Source of the DNA: Phycisphaeraceae bacterium
GTDB taxonomy: Bacteria > Planctomycetota > Phycisphaerae > Phycisphaerales > Phycisphaeraceae
Reading direction: 5' to 3'
DNA length: 45,334 nt
NCBI GenBank assembly: GCA_029260655.1
Contig: JAJDCU010000077.1
Coordinates: 1 to 45,334, forward strand
Both the position numbers and the translations under genes were made by a program. The notes beneath the pieces were generated by a model, which worked only from the letters and a program-made list of their open reading frames with translations, did no database searches and was not told where the DNA came from. The stretch's first letter is position 1, and every line of letters begins with the position of its first letter. This document shows positions 2,777-25,338 of this stretch, piece after piece.

Positions 2777-3547
2777 TCACCGCGCGGTCGCGGGGTTCCA
2801 CAGGTCGATTCCTTTTTCATTGTCAAAGGTCTGAGGAAATGCGACGCCGTTAGCGTGGCCGTCGGCGTAGATGTAGTTAGACGCCGACCCGTGGCGGATA
2901 AGGTCCAGTCCGTCGCCGGGCTCGGTCCGTCCTAGTTTCCAGAAGTGCGCCATGACGTGGTCAACGCCAAAAGCGCCGCCTGCGATCTCGCCGAATATCA
3001 CGGTCGCGGAGGGCAGGGGGATGTCCAGGGTCCTGCCCCAGGTGTTCCCGGCCAGGACCACGGCCTCCTGCGGGTCGGGCGAATCAGGGCGCAGCTCAAA
3101 ATAGACGCTCTTGCCGTAGCTGAGATACGAGTCAGGCGGAGCGAAAGCAGGTTCGGGCTGGTCGCGCTGGTCCTCCGGGCAACGGTAGAGCGTCGACCGG
3201 AGTTGAACCAATGCGTCGCTGGTGAAGATATTGAAGCTCAGCGGGTCACCTGAGAATGAGGTGTATCCGAGATAGGGCGCCAGCTGCACGTCCCAAGCCG
3301 CAACGGGGTCGGCGATGCTGAATGAGTGGACGCTGGGCGGGAAATACTCGTCGTTCTCCCCGGTATACATCGTCATCGCCTGACCGATACTGACCATCTG
3401 TGTCATGCACTGCATCCGCCGGGCGATTGCCTTTGACGCGCCCAAAGCCGGCAACAGGATGCCCATCAGCAGTGCGATGATCGCGATCACCACAACCAAC
3501 TCGATGAGCGTGAAGCCGGCAGATTGCCGCGGTATGTCAATGCGCAT
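2777..3547 (-). CDS. Pseudopilin-type protein with H-X9-DG motif
   Basis: A 256-residue protein with a type IV prepilin/pseudopilin N-terminus: short basic leader, then GFTLIELVVVIAIIALLMGI, which fits prepilin-peptidase cleavage after Gly and N-methylation of Phe. The C-terminal part contains HGSASNYIYADGHANG, i.e. His, nine residues, Asp-Gly, the H-X9-DG signature of a protein family abundant in planctomycetes. The start at 3547 is preceded by GGAGGGGATGG. It overlaps the end of the upstream PEP-CTERM gene by 11 bases, which suggests translational coupling. A role in a type II secretion/pilus-like surface apparatus is inferred from family only. Confidence 0.85.
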   Translation of the reverse strand: MRIDIPRQSAGFTLIELVVVIAIIALLMGILLPALGASKAIARRMQCMTQMVSIGQAMTMYTGENDEYFPPSVHSFSIADPVAAWDVQLAPYLGYTSFSGDPLSFNIFTSDALVQLRSTLYRCPEDQRDQPEPAFAPPDSYLSYGKSVYFELRPDSPDPQEAVVLAGNTWGRTLDIPLPSATVIFGEIAGGAFGVDHVMAHFWKLGRTEPGDGLDLIRHGSASNYIYADGHANGVAFPQTFDNEKGIDLWNPATAR

Positions 3548-4412
3548 TCCATCCCCTCCGCCCCAAAATAAGTAAACCCGCCAATAGCAGCCCCGACGCC
3601 GGCTCAGGCACATCGATGCCAAAACCTGGAGGCGGGGGCGTCCCAGCGTTCCAGTTACCCAGCACGGCGTTGAGGTCTTCGATGCCGACAAAGCCGTCGC
3701 CGGTAGGATCGCCCGACAGCGGATCCCCTTGGGCCGTGCTCTGGTTCCAGTTGCCCAACACGGTGTTGAGGTCTTCGATGCCGACGAATCCGTCGGTGTT
3801 CAGGTCACCGGCGAGCAACTGGTGTGTGTTGGTCCATTCGAAAGTGACTTGGGCCGGAGTGAAAGTGTTATTCATCACACCCAGTGTGTCACCGACGTAG
3901 ACCCGGTAAGTTGCGAAGAAGTCTCCGGGCTCGACGGATGCGTACCAGTTGTGTGTCATCGACCCGGACCAGGACCAGATGTCCGCGGAGCCGAACGTCC
4001 CGAATATCGGGGCCATGGGTTGATCGCCCGGGTTGGGGACACCGGTGCCGCCAGAGTTCGACGCGATCCCGCCCTGGAATGATTGCAGGCCCGGTGTCTG
4101 GTCAATCACCTCGATCCAGATCAAGTCACCTTGCAGGTCGAAGGGGAACAGCGCGGTCCAGCCGAACTGCGCGTTGTACCCCTTGCCGTTGAGCACGGAA
4201 AAGGGGGCGTCGAAGGCGTCCTGGCCGATCATGTCGGGGATCAACGCCGGATCGTCCCTGAAGACAAGCACCTGCCCGCCACTGACACCGATGTTGACGT
4301 GACTCATGAAGCCGCCGAGCGTCTGCCCGTGCGCCCCGCTGCTAACAAGCAGCGAGGCGCATAAGGCAAGACCGGCCGGCCGGCCGATGTTTGACTGTGC
4401 ATATCGAAACAT
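3537..4412 (-). CDS. PEP-CTERM protein with paired dockerin-like repeats
   Basis: A 291-residue secreted protein: signal peptide ending near SSGAHG, a ~165-residue beta-rich domain, two tandem copies of 'GD.N.DGFVGIEDLN.VLGNWN' (EF-hand-like, dockerin type I style), and a PEP-CTERM tail (VPEPASGLLLAGLLILGRRGW). PEP-CTERM proteins are processed by an exosortase; none is in the window. The globular domain is paralogous to the next upstream gene (shared SVLNGKGYNAQFGW / TVLNGRHFNAQLGW, MTHNWY, YRVYVGD, TPAQV). ATG 4412 has GAGGAG seven bases upstream; an alternative ATG at 4427 forms an ATGA overlap with the upstream stop. Confidence 0.85.
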   Translation of the reverse strand: MFRYAQSNIGRPAGLALCASLLVSSGAHGQTLGGFMSHVNIGVSGGQVLVFRDDPALIPDMIGQDAFDAPFSVLNGKGYNAQFGWTALFPFDLQGDLIWIEVIDQTPGLQSFQGGIASNSGGTGVPNPGDQPMAPIFGTFGSADIWSWSGSMTHNWYASVEPGDFFATYRVYVGDTLGVMNNTFTPAQVTFEWTNTHQLLAGDLNTDGFVGIEDLNTVLGNWNQSTAQGDPLSGDPTGDGFVGIEDLNAVLGNWNAGTPPPPGFGIDVPEPASGLLLAGLLILGRRGWNAH

Positions 4413-4423
4413 CGGGTAGCTCC

Positions 4424-5221
4424 TCATAGCTGGCCGTTCCGTCCCCTGCGGCAGACCAGTGCTAGCGTGCCAAGTAGAACGATCGCCGTAGACGCCGGCT
4501 CGGGCACCCAGGCCACATTCACTTGCGCCGGTGTATATGTCGGGTCCAGCACACCGGTCGTGGCATCGCCGACATAGATTCGGTACTGAACCTCGTATAG
4601 ACCGGGTGTGTCCGTGACGTACCAGTTGTGAGTCATAATGCCCGAGCCGCTTGCGATAAACGGTGGGTTGAGGCTGTCTGCGATGTCACGGTCAAACCAC
4701 TTCCAGGGCTGACCGCCTACGAAGATCGGGTCGAGCGTGTGCTGGTCCATCGGCAGCAGTGGGGAGGTAGCGCCCTGCCCGCCCTCGAGGACCTCCAGCG
4801 TGCCCGGGCCGGTAACCGAGATCGGCTCGATCCAGACCGCCGACCCGCTGGGCACGGTCCAGGTCCCAGCGTTCTCGGCGATCCACCCCAGTTGGGCGTT
4901 GAAGTGTCGGCCGTTGAGCACCGTCCAGTCTGGCCCGCCCGTGCCGGATTCATCGGTATAGTCCGGGTGGGTATCTGGCGTGAACTTCAGAGGCAACTCA
5001 GGGGTGTTCCCCGCCGGCGACATGCCCGGGCCTAGATGCACGACAATTTCATTTGCCGGGTTGATCGAAATCATCCCGTGGTACATGCCCAACTCACCGG
5101 CCTGACCGCCGGTCATCATCGGGTTCGGCGGGATAACCGCCGACTGGACCTGTGAGACAACCAACACGACCAATCCGATAGCCATCACAACCGCCCCGAG
5201 GCGGGATAACAGTCGATTCAT
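4424..5221 (-). CDS. PEP-CTERM protein, paralogue of the downstream gene
   Basis: A 265-residue secreted protein with signal peptide (MNRLLSRLGAVVMAIGLVVL...VQSA) and PEP-CTERM tail VPEPASTAIVLLGTLALVCRR. The body shares conserved blocks with the neighbour at 3537-4412 (LNG..FNAQLGW, WIEPI, G.MTHNWY, YRIYVGDATTGVLDPTYTPAQV) but has no dockerin-like repeats, so the pair looks like a tandem duplication followed by domain gain or loss. GAGAGGAG lies six bases before ATG 5221, and a GGCGC-TGT-GCGCC hairpin lies at 5251-5263 in the leader. It is probably the first gene of a three-gene unit with 3537-4412 and the pseudopilin. Function unknown; probably an extracellular or surface protein. Confidence 0.83.
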   Translation of the reverse strand: MNRLLSRLGAVVMAIGLVVLVVSQVQSAVIPPNPMMTGGQAGELGMYHGMISINPANEIVVHLGPGMSPAGNTPELPLKFTPDTHPDYTDESGTGGPDWTVLNGRHFNAQLGWIAENAGTWTVPSGSAVWIEPISVTGPGTLEVLEGGQGATSPLLPMDQHTLDPIFVGGQPWKWFDRDIADSLNPPFIASGSGIMTHNWYVTDTPGLYEVQYRIYVGDATTGVLDPTYTPAQVNVAWVPEPASTAIVLLGTLALVCRRGRNGQL

Positions 5222-5343
5222 AACAAACTCCTCTCGTATCCATGCAGCTTGGCGCTGTGCGCCTTGACCATGACAGACGAAGCGCCCCACTAACAACGCA
5301 GTGGGTGCAATTCGCTAAACAAAAGTGGTTCAAAGATCGGGTA

Positions 5344-21587: not shown

Positions 21588-24098
21588 TCAATTTCTCGGA
21601 CGAGACAGCGACAGCGCACCGCCGAGCATTAGCAGCATCAGAGTCGCGGGTTCGGGCACGGCCGAGGTGGGCGGCAGGGTGCCGGCGTTCCAGTTGCCCA
21701 GGACGATGTTCAGGTCTTCGATCCCGATGAAACCGTCGCCGGAGGGGTCGGCCGCCGGGTCGCCGGGCGGGACGAACTGGTTCCAGTTGCTCAGGACGAC
21801 GTTCAGATCGGTAATCCCGACGAACCCGTCGCCGTCCAGGTCGCCGACGAGCTCATACAGGTATAGCGCGTCGCCGGGGTTCATGTCGAAGGTGGACACG
21901 CGATCATGACCTTGCGCATCTATGTTGAATTGTTGGATCCATTCGGGGACGAGCAGCGCATAGACCCCTTTGGCAGGTAGCGCGTTTAGCACCTCATAGC
22001 CTGCGCCGCCGAACTGTGAGGAGCGAGCCCAGCCGCCCAGTTGCAGTTCGGTTAGATAATCGAAATACCCAATGCCGATGCGTGGTTGCGGCAGGGTTTG
22101 GTCCGTCAGGTTTACCATAAGCAGCATGTCGAAGCCGTCCCATGCCTGGCCTAGTCCCGCCGGGCCGTCCTCCATCATGTATAACGCCGTGCCGGCCCAG
22201 ACCGGCGCCTGGCTGACCAGCGCCGCCAGTTCGGGATCGTCCGCGGACAGGCTCGACAAGCCGCAGACATCCGCCCCGTCGATAAGGTTGGGGATGTAGG
22301 GCGTTCGTTTTTGGCTGTAGCTGTAAAGATCTGGATGGATGAACGGATTAAACGTACGGGGGCCGTAGTTGTTGCCGTTTTCATCGATCGGGTAGTACTG
22401 GGTGCCGCTAGCGAGCGAACCGCTCCACACGTCGGTAGTATTTCGGCGGAAAGAGAACTTCCCGTCGTACAGCGCGTCGACCACAGGATTAGCTGGCGCG
22501 TCGCCGCGCCGGGTGTTGACGGTGCCGCTGCCGCTGACCGACGTAGCTGAGATGAAGACGGTGCCACCCCCGCCGGCGCCGCCTTCGCCGCCGTTGCCGC
22601 TGGCCGCGCCGCTACCGCCGGTCCCGCCGTGTCCGCCGCCGCCGGCGCCGCCACCACCGCCGCCACCGCCACCGGTCCCACCATAGCTGCCGTGGTTAAC
22701 GCCAGCCTCGCCACCGAAACCGGATGTGCCTGCCGTCGCGCTCCCCCCTAAGGCCGCTCCACTCCCACCGGGCTTGCCACTCCCACCCGCTGCACCTGTA
22801 GGGGATACCCGCGTATCGAACGCGCCCACCGCACCGTTACCTCCGGCAGAGCCGTTCGCGCCGGTAGTCCCTGTGAATCCGGCCAGGCCCCCGGTCCCGG
22901 ACGTGGCGGGTTCGGGCCCGTAGGGGCTGCCTTGTGCGAGCAGGGAGCCGCCGTCCAAATGAAGCTGGCCCAGCACCTGGAGCTCGAATGCGCCGCCCCC
23001 GGCATCACCGCCGCGTCCGCCGTCGCCCCCGGCCCCGCCGTCGCCGCCACCGCCGCCATTACCGCCCTTCCCCGCCAAACCCCCTGCCCCACCGGCGTCA
23101 CCTGTGGCACCGAAAGGCCAGACGAAGTTATTGCCGGCACCGCCGCCGCCCCCGCCCCCACCGCCGCCACGGGTACCGGCATCACCGCCGCCGCCGCCGC
23201 CGCCGCCTTGGCCACCCGAGCCACCGCTACCGCCGGAGAGGGACTGACCCTGCTTAGACCTCCCGGTTAAGCCATCATTTCCGTTACCTCCGGCCGATCC
23301 GTGCCCGCCGTTGCCGCCGTTGCCACCGGCGTGTCCACCGGCACCGCCGCCGCCGCCACTACCGCCCACGCCCCAACCCGTGCCGTTGGGTCCACCGCTA
23401 CCGCCAACGGCGTTGTGCAGTGTGTCGTAGATCGAGCCACCGGTCCCGCCGGCCCCGGCATTCGTTGATGACGGCGTGAACGTCCGCAGGCTGCTACCGA
23501 AGCCCTCCCAGCCGGCCCCCCCTGACCCGCCTTGGCCCCCGTTGTAAGTCGCCCCGACATCGCCGTGGTAGTAGTCCCAGCCGTAGGCCCCGCTCCCGCC
23601 ATCCTCGCCGAGGGTGTTGATGGCGCCCCCAGCTCCGCCGGGCCCGCCCGTGCCCGTAACACTGTCACCGACCCCGCCGCCGCCGCCGGTCCCGGTCGCT
23701 CCGCCAGCAGCTCCGGCTCCGCCGACGCCGGCGCGCCCCCCGCCGGCTCGGCCCTGGGTGCCGCTTCCCGACATATCGATCGTCCCGGCCAGTGTCGCGT
23801 TGTTGGCGACGATGAAGCGTACGGGGCGGCTATAATTACCCAAACTTAGCGTGGCAGTGACCGTGTCACCGCTATTGACGGTAAAGTCGCCGTGTACCAG
23901 GTATTGGCGCGCGTGGTCCTGACCAGTGCCGCCATCGGTGATCTGCACGCCGTGCCAATCCACACTCGCGGCGAACGCGCCGCCGTTACTTAGCTGACCC
24001 GTGTCCGGATTGACGGTCAGCACATCTGCACGGGCAATCCCGGACCAGACAAAACACAACGACACCATAAAGCATCCAATGCTCCTGTTGGTAAGCAT
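21588..24098 (-). CDS. Giant glycine-rich PEP-CTERM protein with dockerin-like repeats
   Basis: An 836-residue secreted protein. Order: signal peptide (~1-24, ending GIARA), a ~85-residue beta domain (TVNSGDTVTATLSLGNYSRP), a glycine-rich block of roughly 400 residues built from GGxGG and GGAGG units, a ~220-residue non-repetitive domain (from about TVFISATSV to the Tyr-rich DALYLYELV), two dockerin-like EF-hand repeats (GDLDGDGFVGITDLNVVLSN and DPSGDGFIGIEDLNIVLGN) and a PEP-CTERM tail (VPEPATLMLLMLGGALSLSR). The Gly block resembles mycobacterial PE_PGRS proteins in composition but lacks a PE domain. GAGGGAACCGCC precedes ATG 24098. Probably a surface or matrix protein with calcium-binding repeats; function unknown. 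Confidence 0.85.
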   Translation of the reverse strand: MLTNRSIGCFMVSLCFVWSGIARADVLTVNPDTGQLSNGGAFAASVDWHGVQITDGGTGQDHARQYLVHGDFTVNSGDTVTATLSLGNYSRPVRFIVANNATLAGTIDMSGSGTQGRAGGGRAGVGGAGAAGGATGTGGGGGVGDSVTGTGGPGGAGGAINTLGEDGGSGAYGWDYYHGDVGATYNGGQGGSGGAGWEGFGSSLRTFTPSSTNAGAGGTGGSIYDTLHNAVGGSGGPNGTGWGVGGSGGGGGAGGHAGGNGGNGGHGSAGGNGNDGLTGRSKQGQSLSGGSGGSGGQGGGGGGGGDAGTRGGGGGGGGGGAGNNFVWPFGATGDAGGAGGLAGKGGNGGGGGDGGAGGDGGRGGDAGGGAFELQVLGQLHLDGGSLLAQGSPYGPEPATSGTGGLAGFTGTTGANGSAGGNGAVGAFDTRVSPTGAAGGSGKPGGSGAALGGSATAGTSGFGGEAGVNHGSYGGTGGGGGGGGGAGGGGHGGTGGSGAASGNGGEGGAGGGGTVFISATSVSGSGTVNTRRGDAPANPVVDALYDGKFSFRRNTTDVWSGSLASGTQYYPIDENGNNYGPRTFNPFIHPDLYSYSQKRTPYIPNLIDGADVCGLSSLSADDPELAALVSQAPVWAGTALYMMEDGPAGLGQAWDGFDMLLMVNLTDQTLPQPRIGIGYFDYLTELQLGGWARSSQFGGAGYEVLNALPAKGVYALLVPEWIQQFNIDAQGHDRVSTFDMNPGDALYLYELVGDLDGDGFVGITDLNVVLSNWNQFVPPGDPAADPSGDGFIGIEDLNIVLGNWNAGTLPPTSAVPEPATLMLLMLGGALSLSRPRN

Positions 24099-24484: not shown

Positions 24485-24549
24485 ATCCGACAGCATCAGT
24501 TCCGTGTCGATCGTCTCGATATCCCGGATCGGATCGACCTTCCATCAAC
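24485..24549 (-). pseudogene. Relic of a second ychF (about 22 codons)
   Basis: On the minus strand this reads [22 protein letters not shown] and then stops, matching an internal segment of YchF encoded at about 21051-21117. Against the intact gene I count six synonymous third-position changes (e.g. GAG/GAA, GAC/GAT, GTA/GTC), no amino-acid change, and one single-base deletion. The matching segment ends at a TAA where ychF continues LATVE. Its upstream end supplies the TGA stop of the adjacent PEP-CTERM gene. It appears to be what remains of a diverged ychF copy. Confidence 0.75.
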
Positions 24550-25288
24550 GCCTTCGCCTTACACAGAGCTCCGCACCGGCCATCAGCAGGGCTATCGTCG
24601 AGGGCTCCGGCACTGTGAAGATGCGGGCCTGATCGATCCCCAGTTCGGCGTGCAGGTCGAAGGTAACGGAGTTCAGGTCGAAGGCGATGGTCGCCGAATC
24701 GGTGCCGGGCAGTGTCTCGAAGCCCCGGGTCGTACTGCCCGTGGGATACGTAACTGCGGGGAGTCCAACTGGGAATCCGTCACTGCCATCAAGGTAAGGC
24801 GGGTGCAGCGCCATGCCCACGATGATTTCACCTGGATCAAATGTCACACCACCGGCAAGCGAGATGATGCCGCCGGCCGGATCGAAGTGAACGATATAAG
24901 TATGAACAAACAATCCTGGGGGAAGGACATCCAGTGGCCCGGCCGGAAACTGAATACCCGGCCCAAAGGCGTCCACGAACAAGGGCCCCGCCAGAAACTT
25001 GCTGCCTTCATCAATGATGCGGATCTCGGTGGAGCTTTCAAAAGCTCCCGACACGAGGGACGGCGGTGGCGCGACCTCCACCATGGCTCCTGATGTGGCC
25101 AGGATGTCGGCTTGCGCCTGACCAGCCAACATGAATGTCAACACGCAGAGAAGACCCCAACGCATGCGGTGTCTCGTGGCAGCACTTGAAGCCTTGAGCA
25201 GCTCTTTCAATCGATCAGTCGAACGGTGAGTAATCTGCGCAGTCAAAATCACGACAGTCCCGGTGTACAACGCACGTAAATCATGCAT
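24545..25288 (-). CDS. PEP-CTERM protein with extended N-terminus
   Basis: A 247-residue exported protein with PEP-CTERM tail VPEPSTIALLMAGAELCVRRRR. The best ribosome site, GAGGAGG eight bases before ATG 25288, gives about 41 residues (MHDLRALYTGTVVILTAQIT...) ahead of the canonical signal peptide MRWGLLCVLTFMLAGQAQA. A start at 25165 would give a normal signal peptide but has no good Shine-Dalgarno. The body (~60-220) is beta-rich, with no recognised domain; it contains FDPGEIIVGMALHPPYLDGSDGF. Its TGA stop lies at the edge of the ychF relic, so the 3' end may be a recombination junction. Confidence 0.78.
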   Translation of the reverse strand: MHDLRALYTGTVVILTAQITHRSTDRLKELLKASSAATRHRMRWGLLCVLTFMLAGQAQADILATSGAMVEVAPPPSLVSGAFESSTEIRIIDEGSKFLAGPLFVDAFGPGIQFPAGPLDVLPPGLFVHTYIVHFDPAGGIISLAGGVTFDPGEIIVGMALHPPYLDGSDGFPVGLPAVTYPTGSTTRGFETLPGTDSATIAFDLNSVTFDLHAELGIDQARIFTVPEPSTIALLMAGAELCVRRRR

Positions 25289-25306
25289 GTTCCCGCCCTC
25301 CTCTTG

Positions 25307-25338
25307 TGAAATGAAACGCACTTGAAATGAAACGCACC
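25307..25338. repeat. Tandem 16-bp repeat in the leader of the PEP-CTERM gene
   Basis: tgaaatgaaacgcact is followed directly by tgaaatgaaacgcacc (25307-25322, 25323-25338). Adjoining it is the palindrome ACCGGC-TG-GCCGGT at 25336-25349. Both lie between the candidate promoter and the start codon at 25288. Confidence 0.85.

Follow-up and report, generated by a model that had tools for sequence, protein, structure and literature searches.

The window, by which we mean the whole 45,334-nucleotide stretch of DNA analysed, carries on its minus strand a gene of 836 codons plus stop that forms one uninterrupted open reading frame. The frame proposed in the initial annotation is exact in both coordinates, and the beta-rich N-terminal part, non-repetitive domain, paired calcium loops and PEP-CTERM end that were read into it are all recovered in the following layout:

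21588..24098, minus strand: whole gene, 836 residues, ATG at 24098, stop at 21588 included, single reading frame
24027..24098, minus strand: signal peptide, residues 1-24, Sec-type, with an Arg, a hydrophobic core and ARA followed by D
23763..24026, minus strand: beta N-part, residues 25-112, the first predicted beta-helix rungs; pLDDT mostly 60-91, aligns to solved beta-helices
23001..23762, minus strand: first Gly stretch, residues 113-366, 48% Gly in GGX triplets; pLDDT mostly 22-37
22926..23000, minus strand: conserved beta rung separating one Gly stretch from the other, residues 367-391, GGGAFELQVLGQLHLDGGSLLAQG; model strand 370-387
22566..22925, minus strand: second Gly stretch, residues 392-511, 46% Gly
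22374..22565, minus strand: last predicted beta-helix rungs, residues 512-575; strands 513-528 and 547-552, and strands 396-453 in the homologue model
21861..22373, minus strand: non-repetitive domain, residues 576-746, from alignments A1 and A3; beta-sandwich predicted in the homologue model only
21807..21842, minus strand: calcium loop 1, residues 753-764, DLDGDGFVGITD, from Pfam scan and sequence
21714..21749, minus strand: calcium loop 2, residues 784-795, DPSGDGFIGIED, from Pfam scan and sequence
21591..21662, minus strand: PEP-CTERM sorting signal, residues 813-836, with VPEP, a hydrophobic stretch and a basic end; TIGR02595, PF07589

The signal peptide was identified by eye and corresponds to a helix (residues 3-18) in the AlphaFold2 model; it supports the export that had been proposed. 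At the other end, the sorting signal passes the cut-off of the NCBIfam PEP-CTERM model TIGR02595 (17.8 bits versus 16) and falls just below that of the Pfam model PF07589 (18.6 versus 20.7). The protein resembles known substrates of the PEP-CTERM system, in which proteins are processed by an exosortase and associate with exopolysaccharide: it has the C-terminal PEP motif, hydrophobic stretch and basic end, and its own genome (G000, 3.52 Mb, 95% complete) encodes exosortases at two loci (168.7 and 159.9 bits versus a cut-off of 25.7), in line with the surface sorting suggested earlier. Directly upstream of the gene, at 24545-25321 on the minus strand, lies another PEP-CTERM protein, of 258 residues and lacking calcium loops. 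Two PEP-CTERM genes whose front parts resemble each other lie side by side at 3537-4427 and 4424-5296, both on the minus strand; the former has a paired calcium-loop tail that is 68% identical to that of our protein over residues 750-833, and the latter has no such tail. The non-repetitive domain has no Pfam match, and a PDB sequence search with it returned none. With the whole protein, this search gave weak matches only, the best (E 0.014) in a Gly stretch and another, to a cellulosomal chain, in the tail (E 0.051). A scan for promoters and terminators across the gene found nothing above chance.

Glycine dominates residues 113-511. A single Gly block of about 400 residues had been described; the block is present, at 46-48% Gly, but a beta segment at residues 369-390 interrupts it, so it is not one run. 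The protein contains 43 overlapping GGxGG motifs; when its residues are shuffled 1000 times, the mean is 17.7 and the maximum 30. Gly recurs with a period of three (autocorrelation 0.414 at lag 3, z = 8.0; z = 5.6 at lag 6; no rise at lags 1, 2, 4 or 5), and 138 of 370 residues fall within runs of at least two GGX triplets (shuffle mean 71.6, maximum 114; 1000 shuffles). This period is shared by all 17 homologous blocks measured, in which the lag-3 autocorrelation is 0.36-0.47. The block also contains 18 Phe, Trp or Tyr residues. Because its Gly codons are mixed (GGC 95, GGT 40, GGG 36, GGA 14) and TRF detects only short, imperfect arrays in its DNA, slippage is not the origin of the block.

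We counted changes by region in seven pairs of homologues, in which alignment of low-complexity sequence is uncertain and the figures are rough. In three close pairs of family f2 (G195/G095, G113/G195 and G243/G217), dN/dS is 0.04, 0.03 and 0.02 at the Gly positions of the block and, in the same order, 0.15, 0.24 and 0.11 at its non-Gly positions; the post-block domain of the f2 pairs gives 0.24, 0.30 and 0.09. Gly is therefore the most constrained class of residue in the block, which is translated in the annotated frame. We conclude that the Gly block is real and under selection. A frameshift or misassembly, named at the outset as the finding that would undo the initial reading, is contradicted by this low dN/dS of 0.02-0.04, by the codon mix and by the two other same-strand frames, where the block region is broken by 2 and 16 stops and Gly makes up only 11-12%. 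Low complexity and a GC content near 74% do invite error, yet the chance that the block is a frameshift, an assembly artefact or functionless drift is negligible, given these stops, the conservation of blocks in homologues from separate genomes and the synonymous divergence of Gly codons whose Gly is retained.

Searched against its own genome, the whole protein has 113 matches: one to itself and 112 others, the latter all confined to residues 705-836, which comprise the tail and the segment leading up to it. Its mid domain and its N-part are each single-copy. A pattern of four successive GG pairs occurs at 20 places in this genome, 10 of them within this gene; the frames at the remaining places are one long protein containing 9 GGxGG motifs, one frame with nothing remarkable about it, two short proteins resembling RNA-binding proteins and one resembling GroEL. 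Beyond this genome, the mid domain is present in 9 of 51 genomes of the same family. The A1 profile (10 rows) matches 27 of the 301 genomes in the order and 7 of 392 genomes of the phylum, five of those seven inside the order, and among named records it matches five loci, all in metagenome-assembled genomes labelled Phycisphaeraceae or Planctomycetota. The A3 profile (14 rows), from which the Gly-rich part was left out to avoid circularity, gives 32 rows in 23 of the 301 genomes of the order, and 30 loci were examined after two rows on G169 contig 3 were set aside. A Gly block, defined as at least 32% Gly upstream or at least 52 GGxGG motifs in frame, is present at 28 of these 30 loci: 26 in the standard survey, and L098 and L099 with the HMMER filters off. 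Five loci (L061, L062, L063, L065 and L066) were recovered in the survey with these filters off. The survey thus bears out the idea that the architecture is conserved among related planctomycetes and, judged by these profiles, the window protein is a member of a real, conserved family in the planctomycete order.

The coupling of mid domain and Gly block is not strict. The two A3 loci without a block, L097 (G038, 23.7 bits) and L100 (G296, 18.9 bits), are weak partial matches; L064 and L068 are mid-domain loci without a block; and L073, from a genome outside the order (G348; profile positions 134-231, 73.9 bits), is a 390-residue frame with PEP-CTERM and no Gly block. All five speak against an obligatory association. 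The tails vary as well: in family f1 they mostly consist of calcium loops and PEP-CTERM (G031 has PEP-CTERM alone), whereas f2 relatives, unlike typical PEP-CTERM proteins, end the same module in a dockerin-type pair, mostly with a Cys-Pro or Cys end, and lack PEP-CTERM. The GC-type dockerin model NF041540 (cut-off 29) is passed by L055 (51.1) and L060 (67.1), L056 scores below it (20.3) and L053 gives no match to this model. Some relatives are far larger. Contig 44 of G040 (L030/L039) contains a 9922-residue open frame with two complete Gly modules and further stretches of GGxGxD-type repeats; no PEP-CTERM is seen at its end, and near an upstream Met there is what we take to be an LEPR-like motif. 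L032-L036 are relatives of about 2000 residues in which an N-terminal Gly module precedes a long non-Gly stretch containing repeat-like segments; paired calcium loops and PEP-CTERM make up their end.

To relate the Gly stretches to the parts that flank them, we used two AlphaFold2 models. That of the window protein (8 alignment rows, mean pLDDT 38.5) is confident only at residues 22-112, 368-390 and about 511-530; that of the G040 module from L039 (mean pLDDT 51.7) has most of its alignment rows in common with the first and is not fully independent of it. Neither gives the Gly stretches a fold (pLDDT mostly 22-37 and 21-41, respectively). Foldseek alone, run with both models against the PDB, returned no match at E ≤ 0.001. 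A second-look aligner, for which Z values below 8 may reflect a common arrangement, placed residues 21..612 of the window model on the beta-helix of hemolysin A from Proteus (P.) mirabilis (Z 9.9, rmsd 2.9 Å over 130 residues; Z 8.1 for 6pzl) and residues 25..577 on helices of the Hbp autotransporter (Z 6.5 and 6.4). Residues 1..456 of the L039 model were placed on parallel beta-helices of the tailspike type: WceF (Z 7.3, 128 aligned, 3.0 Å), K2-2 TSP (Z 6.2) and Kp7 gp52 (Z 5.3). Since the alignments of both models extend across both Gly stretches, these stretches would exit and re-enter one helix. Residues 499-614 of the L039 model, from the non-repetitive domain (pLDDT 37-82), align to beta-sandwich chains with Z up to 5.4, including adaptin-ear and CBM56 chains near 4.7-4.9. 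A fold search against viral proteins gave one match below 0.001, to an uncultured phage protein (E 2.8e-4), which we distrust on geometric grounds (rmsd 27 Å).

The segment between the two Gly stretches starts with GGGA and continues in alternating hydrophobic residues up to LG. A profile of this rung matches 17 of 22 loci when a domain E ≤ 1 is allowed, and 14 of these also pass E ≤ 0.01; the 22 include L034 and L080, which belong to the seed sequences. It has no match in L032, L035, L088, L099 and L102, although a rung-like stretch is visible by eye in L032 and L035. Compared by sequence, the three rungs score at or below controls except for the pair B-C, whose score of 5.9 lies above the maximum of the C controls (5.2) and below that of the B controls (11.1). 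On the basis of the models, residues 25-112, 367-391 and 512-575 are predicted to form one short parallel beta-helix, and both Gly stretches appear to be long loops out of this helix, folding in cis.

The best analogue of such an arrangement, as modelled, is the polyglycine-sandwich adhesin gp38. In the available excerpts of its description, gp38 of phage S16 (6F45) has a central beta-helix, two turns of which, 18 and 77 residues long, are extended and pack into a receptor-binding polyglycine sandwich of three layers, whose ends carry hypervariable loops (PMC6851490); PP01 gp38 is described in excerpt as having the same build, with receptor loops (PMC12892980). The polyglycine sandwich domain is said there to be especially difficult to predict, consistent with the low model confidence in our Gly stretches, and as of 2019 similar motifs were counted in only four other PDB structures (PMC6851490, in part). 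By prediction, the window protein shares with gp38 a beta-helix with two turns extended as Gly-rich loops, and in both the loops are about half Gly, with non-Gly segments between Gly motifs. It differs in the size of the loops, about 254 and 120 residues, and in lacking the N-terminal helical bundle by which gp38 attaches to the fibre; it carries instead a signal peptide, two calcium loops and a tail for sorting. Pfam includes a gp38 family. No match to gp38 was found in the Pfam scan (E ≤ 1) or in PHROGs, a tblastn search of phage records with the low-complexity filter on gave no match, and gp38 is not among the matches in the structure lists, which we read as an absence only. The polyglycine II bundle envisaged in the initial annotation is compatible with the triplet period, but AlphaFold2 assigned the Gly stretches no fold.

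A counterpart of the hypervariable gp38 loops is clear in one comparison. Between the window protein and its homologue in G027, of the same genus, synonymous sites are near saturation and non-Gly block positions are 0.28 identical, compared with 0.72 in the N-part, 0.53 in the post-block domain and 0.81 in the tail; the block contains 96 gap columns. Three further pairs are intermediate: in G040a/b, G036/G037 and G028/G041, non-Gly block identity (0.41, 0.64 and 0.62) is below that of the post-block domain (0.50, 0.80 and 0.79) and, in two of the three, close to that of the N-part (0.67, 0.66 and 0.56). In the three closer f2 pairs the counterpart is absent: non-Gly block identity is near that of the flanks, and no block gap columns occur in any of the three. 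On these rough sequence comparisons, fast loop divergence is clear in the window's genus only.

We favour, at slightly better than an even chance, a secreted surface or matrix adhesin that is built like an enlarged gp38 tip. After Sec export, for which the signal peptide argues, the three beta segments would assemble into one short parallel beta-helix, as predicted for two homologues, and two of its turns would extend into Gly-rich loops some 254 and 120 residues long. Given the triplet period and the gp38 topology, these loops may pack against each other in a polyglycine II sandwich, forming a stiff Gly plate that would display the non-Gly segments at its ends. The beta-sandwich domain, predicted with low to moderate confidence, could serve as a spacer between plate and anchor. 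The calcium loops and PEP-CTERM, a tail that many proteins of this genome share, would then pass the protein to exosortase and on to exopolysaccharide or the outer surface. Once displayed, the plate would most likely bind a surface glycan or protein.

The initial annotation had instead taken the Gly block, set between a beta domain and a non-repetitive domain, for a fibre or matrix module and suggested an extracellular matrix polymer. The polymer is not supported: nothing found shows polymerisation, and the predicted geometry is that of two loops of one beta-helix, in cis, in place of a linear fibre that joins two domains. A polymerising matrix fibre, in which the Gly stretches of separate molecules associate in a silk-like manner and the calcium loops provide cross-links, is accordingly an improbable alternative. 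The GGX triplets resemble silk-type repeats and PEP-CTERM proteins have been linked to flocs and biofilms, in both cases according to partial sources, and the 96 block gap columns against G027 would suit a repeat of this kind. However, only one Gly-block copy is found in the genome, the Gly stretches hold conserved places between conserved rungs, and the gapless blocks of the three close f2 pairs are unlike typical silk repeats.

Equally doubtful is a reading of the paired loops as genuine dockerins by which the protein would attach to a cohesin scaffold, like the 'planctosome' proposed, in the excerpt available, for freshwater planctomycetes (PMC6461901). As in type I and GC-type dockerins, there are two loops of the form D-x-[DS]-x-D-...-D, with D at positions 1, 5 and 12; the homologue L032 passes the Dockerin_1 cut-off (26.9 versus 22.9), and 31 of the order's 301 genomes contain cohesins. 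The window protein, in contrast, stays below both cut-offs (Dockerin_1, 14.2 versus 22.9; NF041540, 19.4 versus 29), and its sorting signal comes directly after the loops. A search for cohesin (PF00963) gave 0 matches in its 95% complete genome, where a strongly diverged cohesin could escape, and just two of the 27 genomes with A1 contain a cohesin: G038 (E 8.3e-4) and G275 (E 9.9e-5). With no cohesin turning up in this genome, and with little overlap across the order between cohesins and the module, the case for dockerins is weak; of the earlier term dockerin-like, the calcium loops fit, whereas the family score and the cohesin search do not. The calcium-loop and PEP-CTERM tail is found at 112 further matches in this genome despite no cohesin being found. 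A literature search on PEP-CTERM combined with dockerin found no paper in the collection covered.

Less probable still is a sail like that proposed for PE_PGRS proteins, in which the plate would enter the outer membrane by a hydrophobic loop edge and the C-terminal domain would be cargo. In the excerpts consulted, PE_PGRS proteins are modelled as polyglycine II sandwiches with hydrophobic and aromatic residues along one edge (PMC9436101), a picture that the 18 aromatic residues of our block could match. The triplet composition is the same, and both are exported proteins with GGX triplets across hundreds of residues. Against this, the Pfam scan at E ≤ 1 gave only PEP-CTERM, Dockerin_1 and EF-hand_1, with no PE domain; the window protein has a signal peptide and PEP-CTERM, which already supplies surface sorting, and conserved beta rungs split its Gly block. 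The earlier label PE_PGRS-like therefore holds for composition and triplets and fails for the PE domain, which was not detected. Judged by their titles, the papers found on PGRS in planctomycetes include no study of a Gly-block protein.

If the adhesin reading is extended from this protein to its relatives, they would make up a family of cellular polyglycine-sandwich adhesins of very large size, with gp38-type tips several times the phage size mounted on the cell's own surface; we put this broader proposal slightly below even. The plate may have an origin separate from both phage gp38 and mycobacterial PE_PGRS; if so, the polyglycine sandwich would be a display scaffold reached by convergence. 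The polyglycine II sandwich of gp38 is a solved structure and those of PE_PGRS proteins are models; a family of bacterial proteins in which large Gly plates under selection sit on a beta-helix would offer a tractable way to the structure of a large polyglycine lattice. The case also counsels caution against reading GGxGG blocks as fibres, since here the block is apparently folded back onto a compact domain. For the organisms themselves, the family is a candidate for how uncultured planctomycetes attach to surfaces or matrix.
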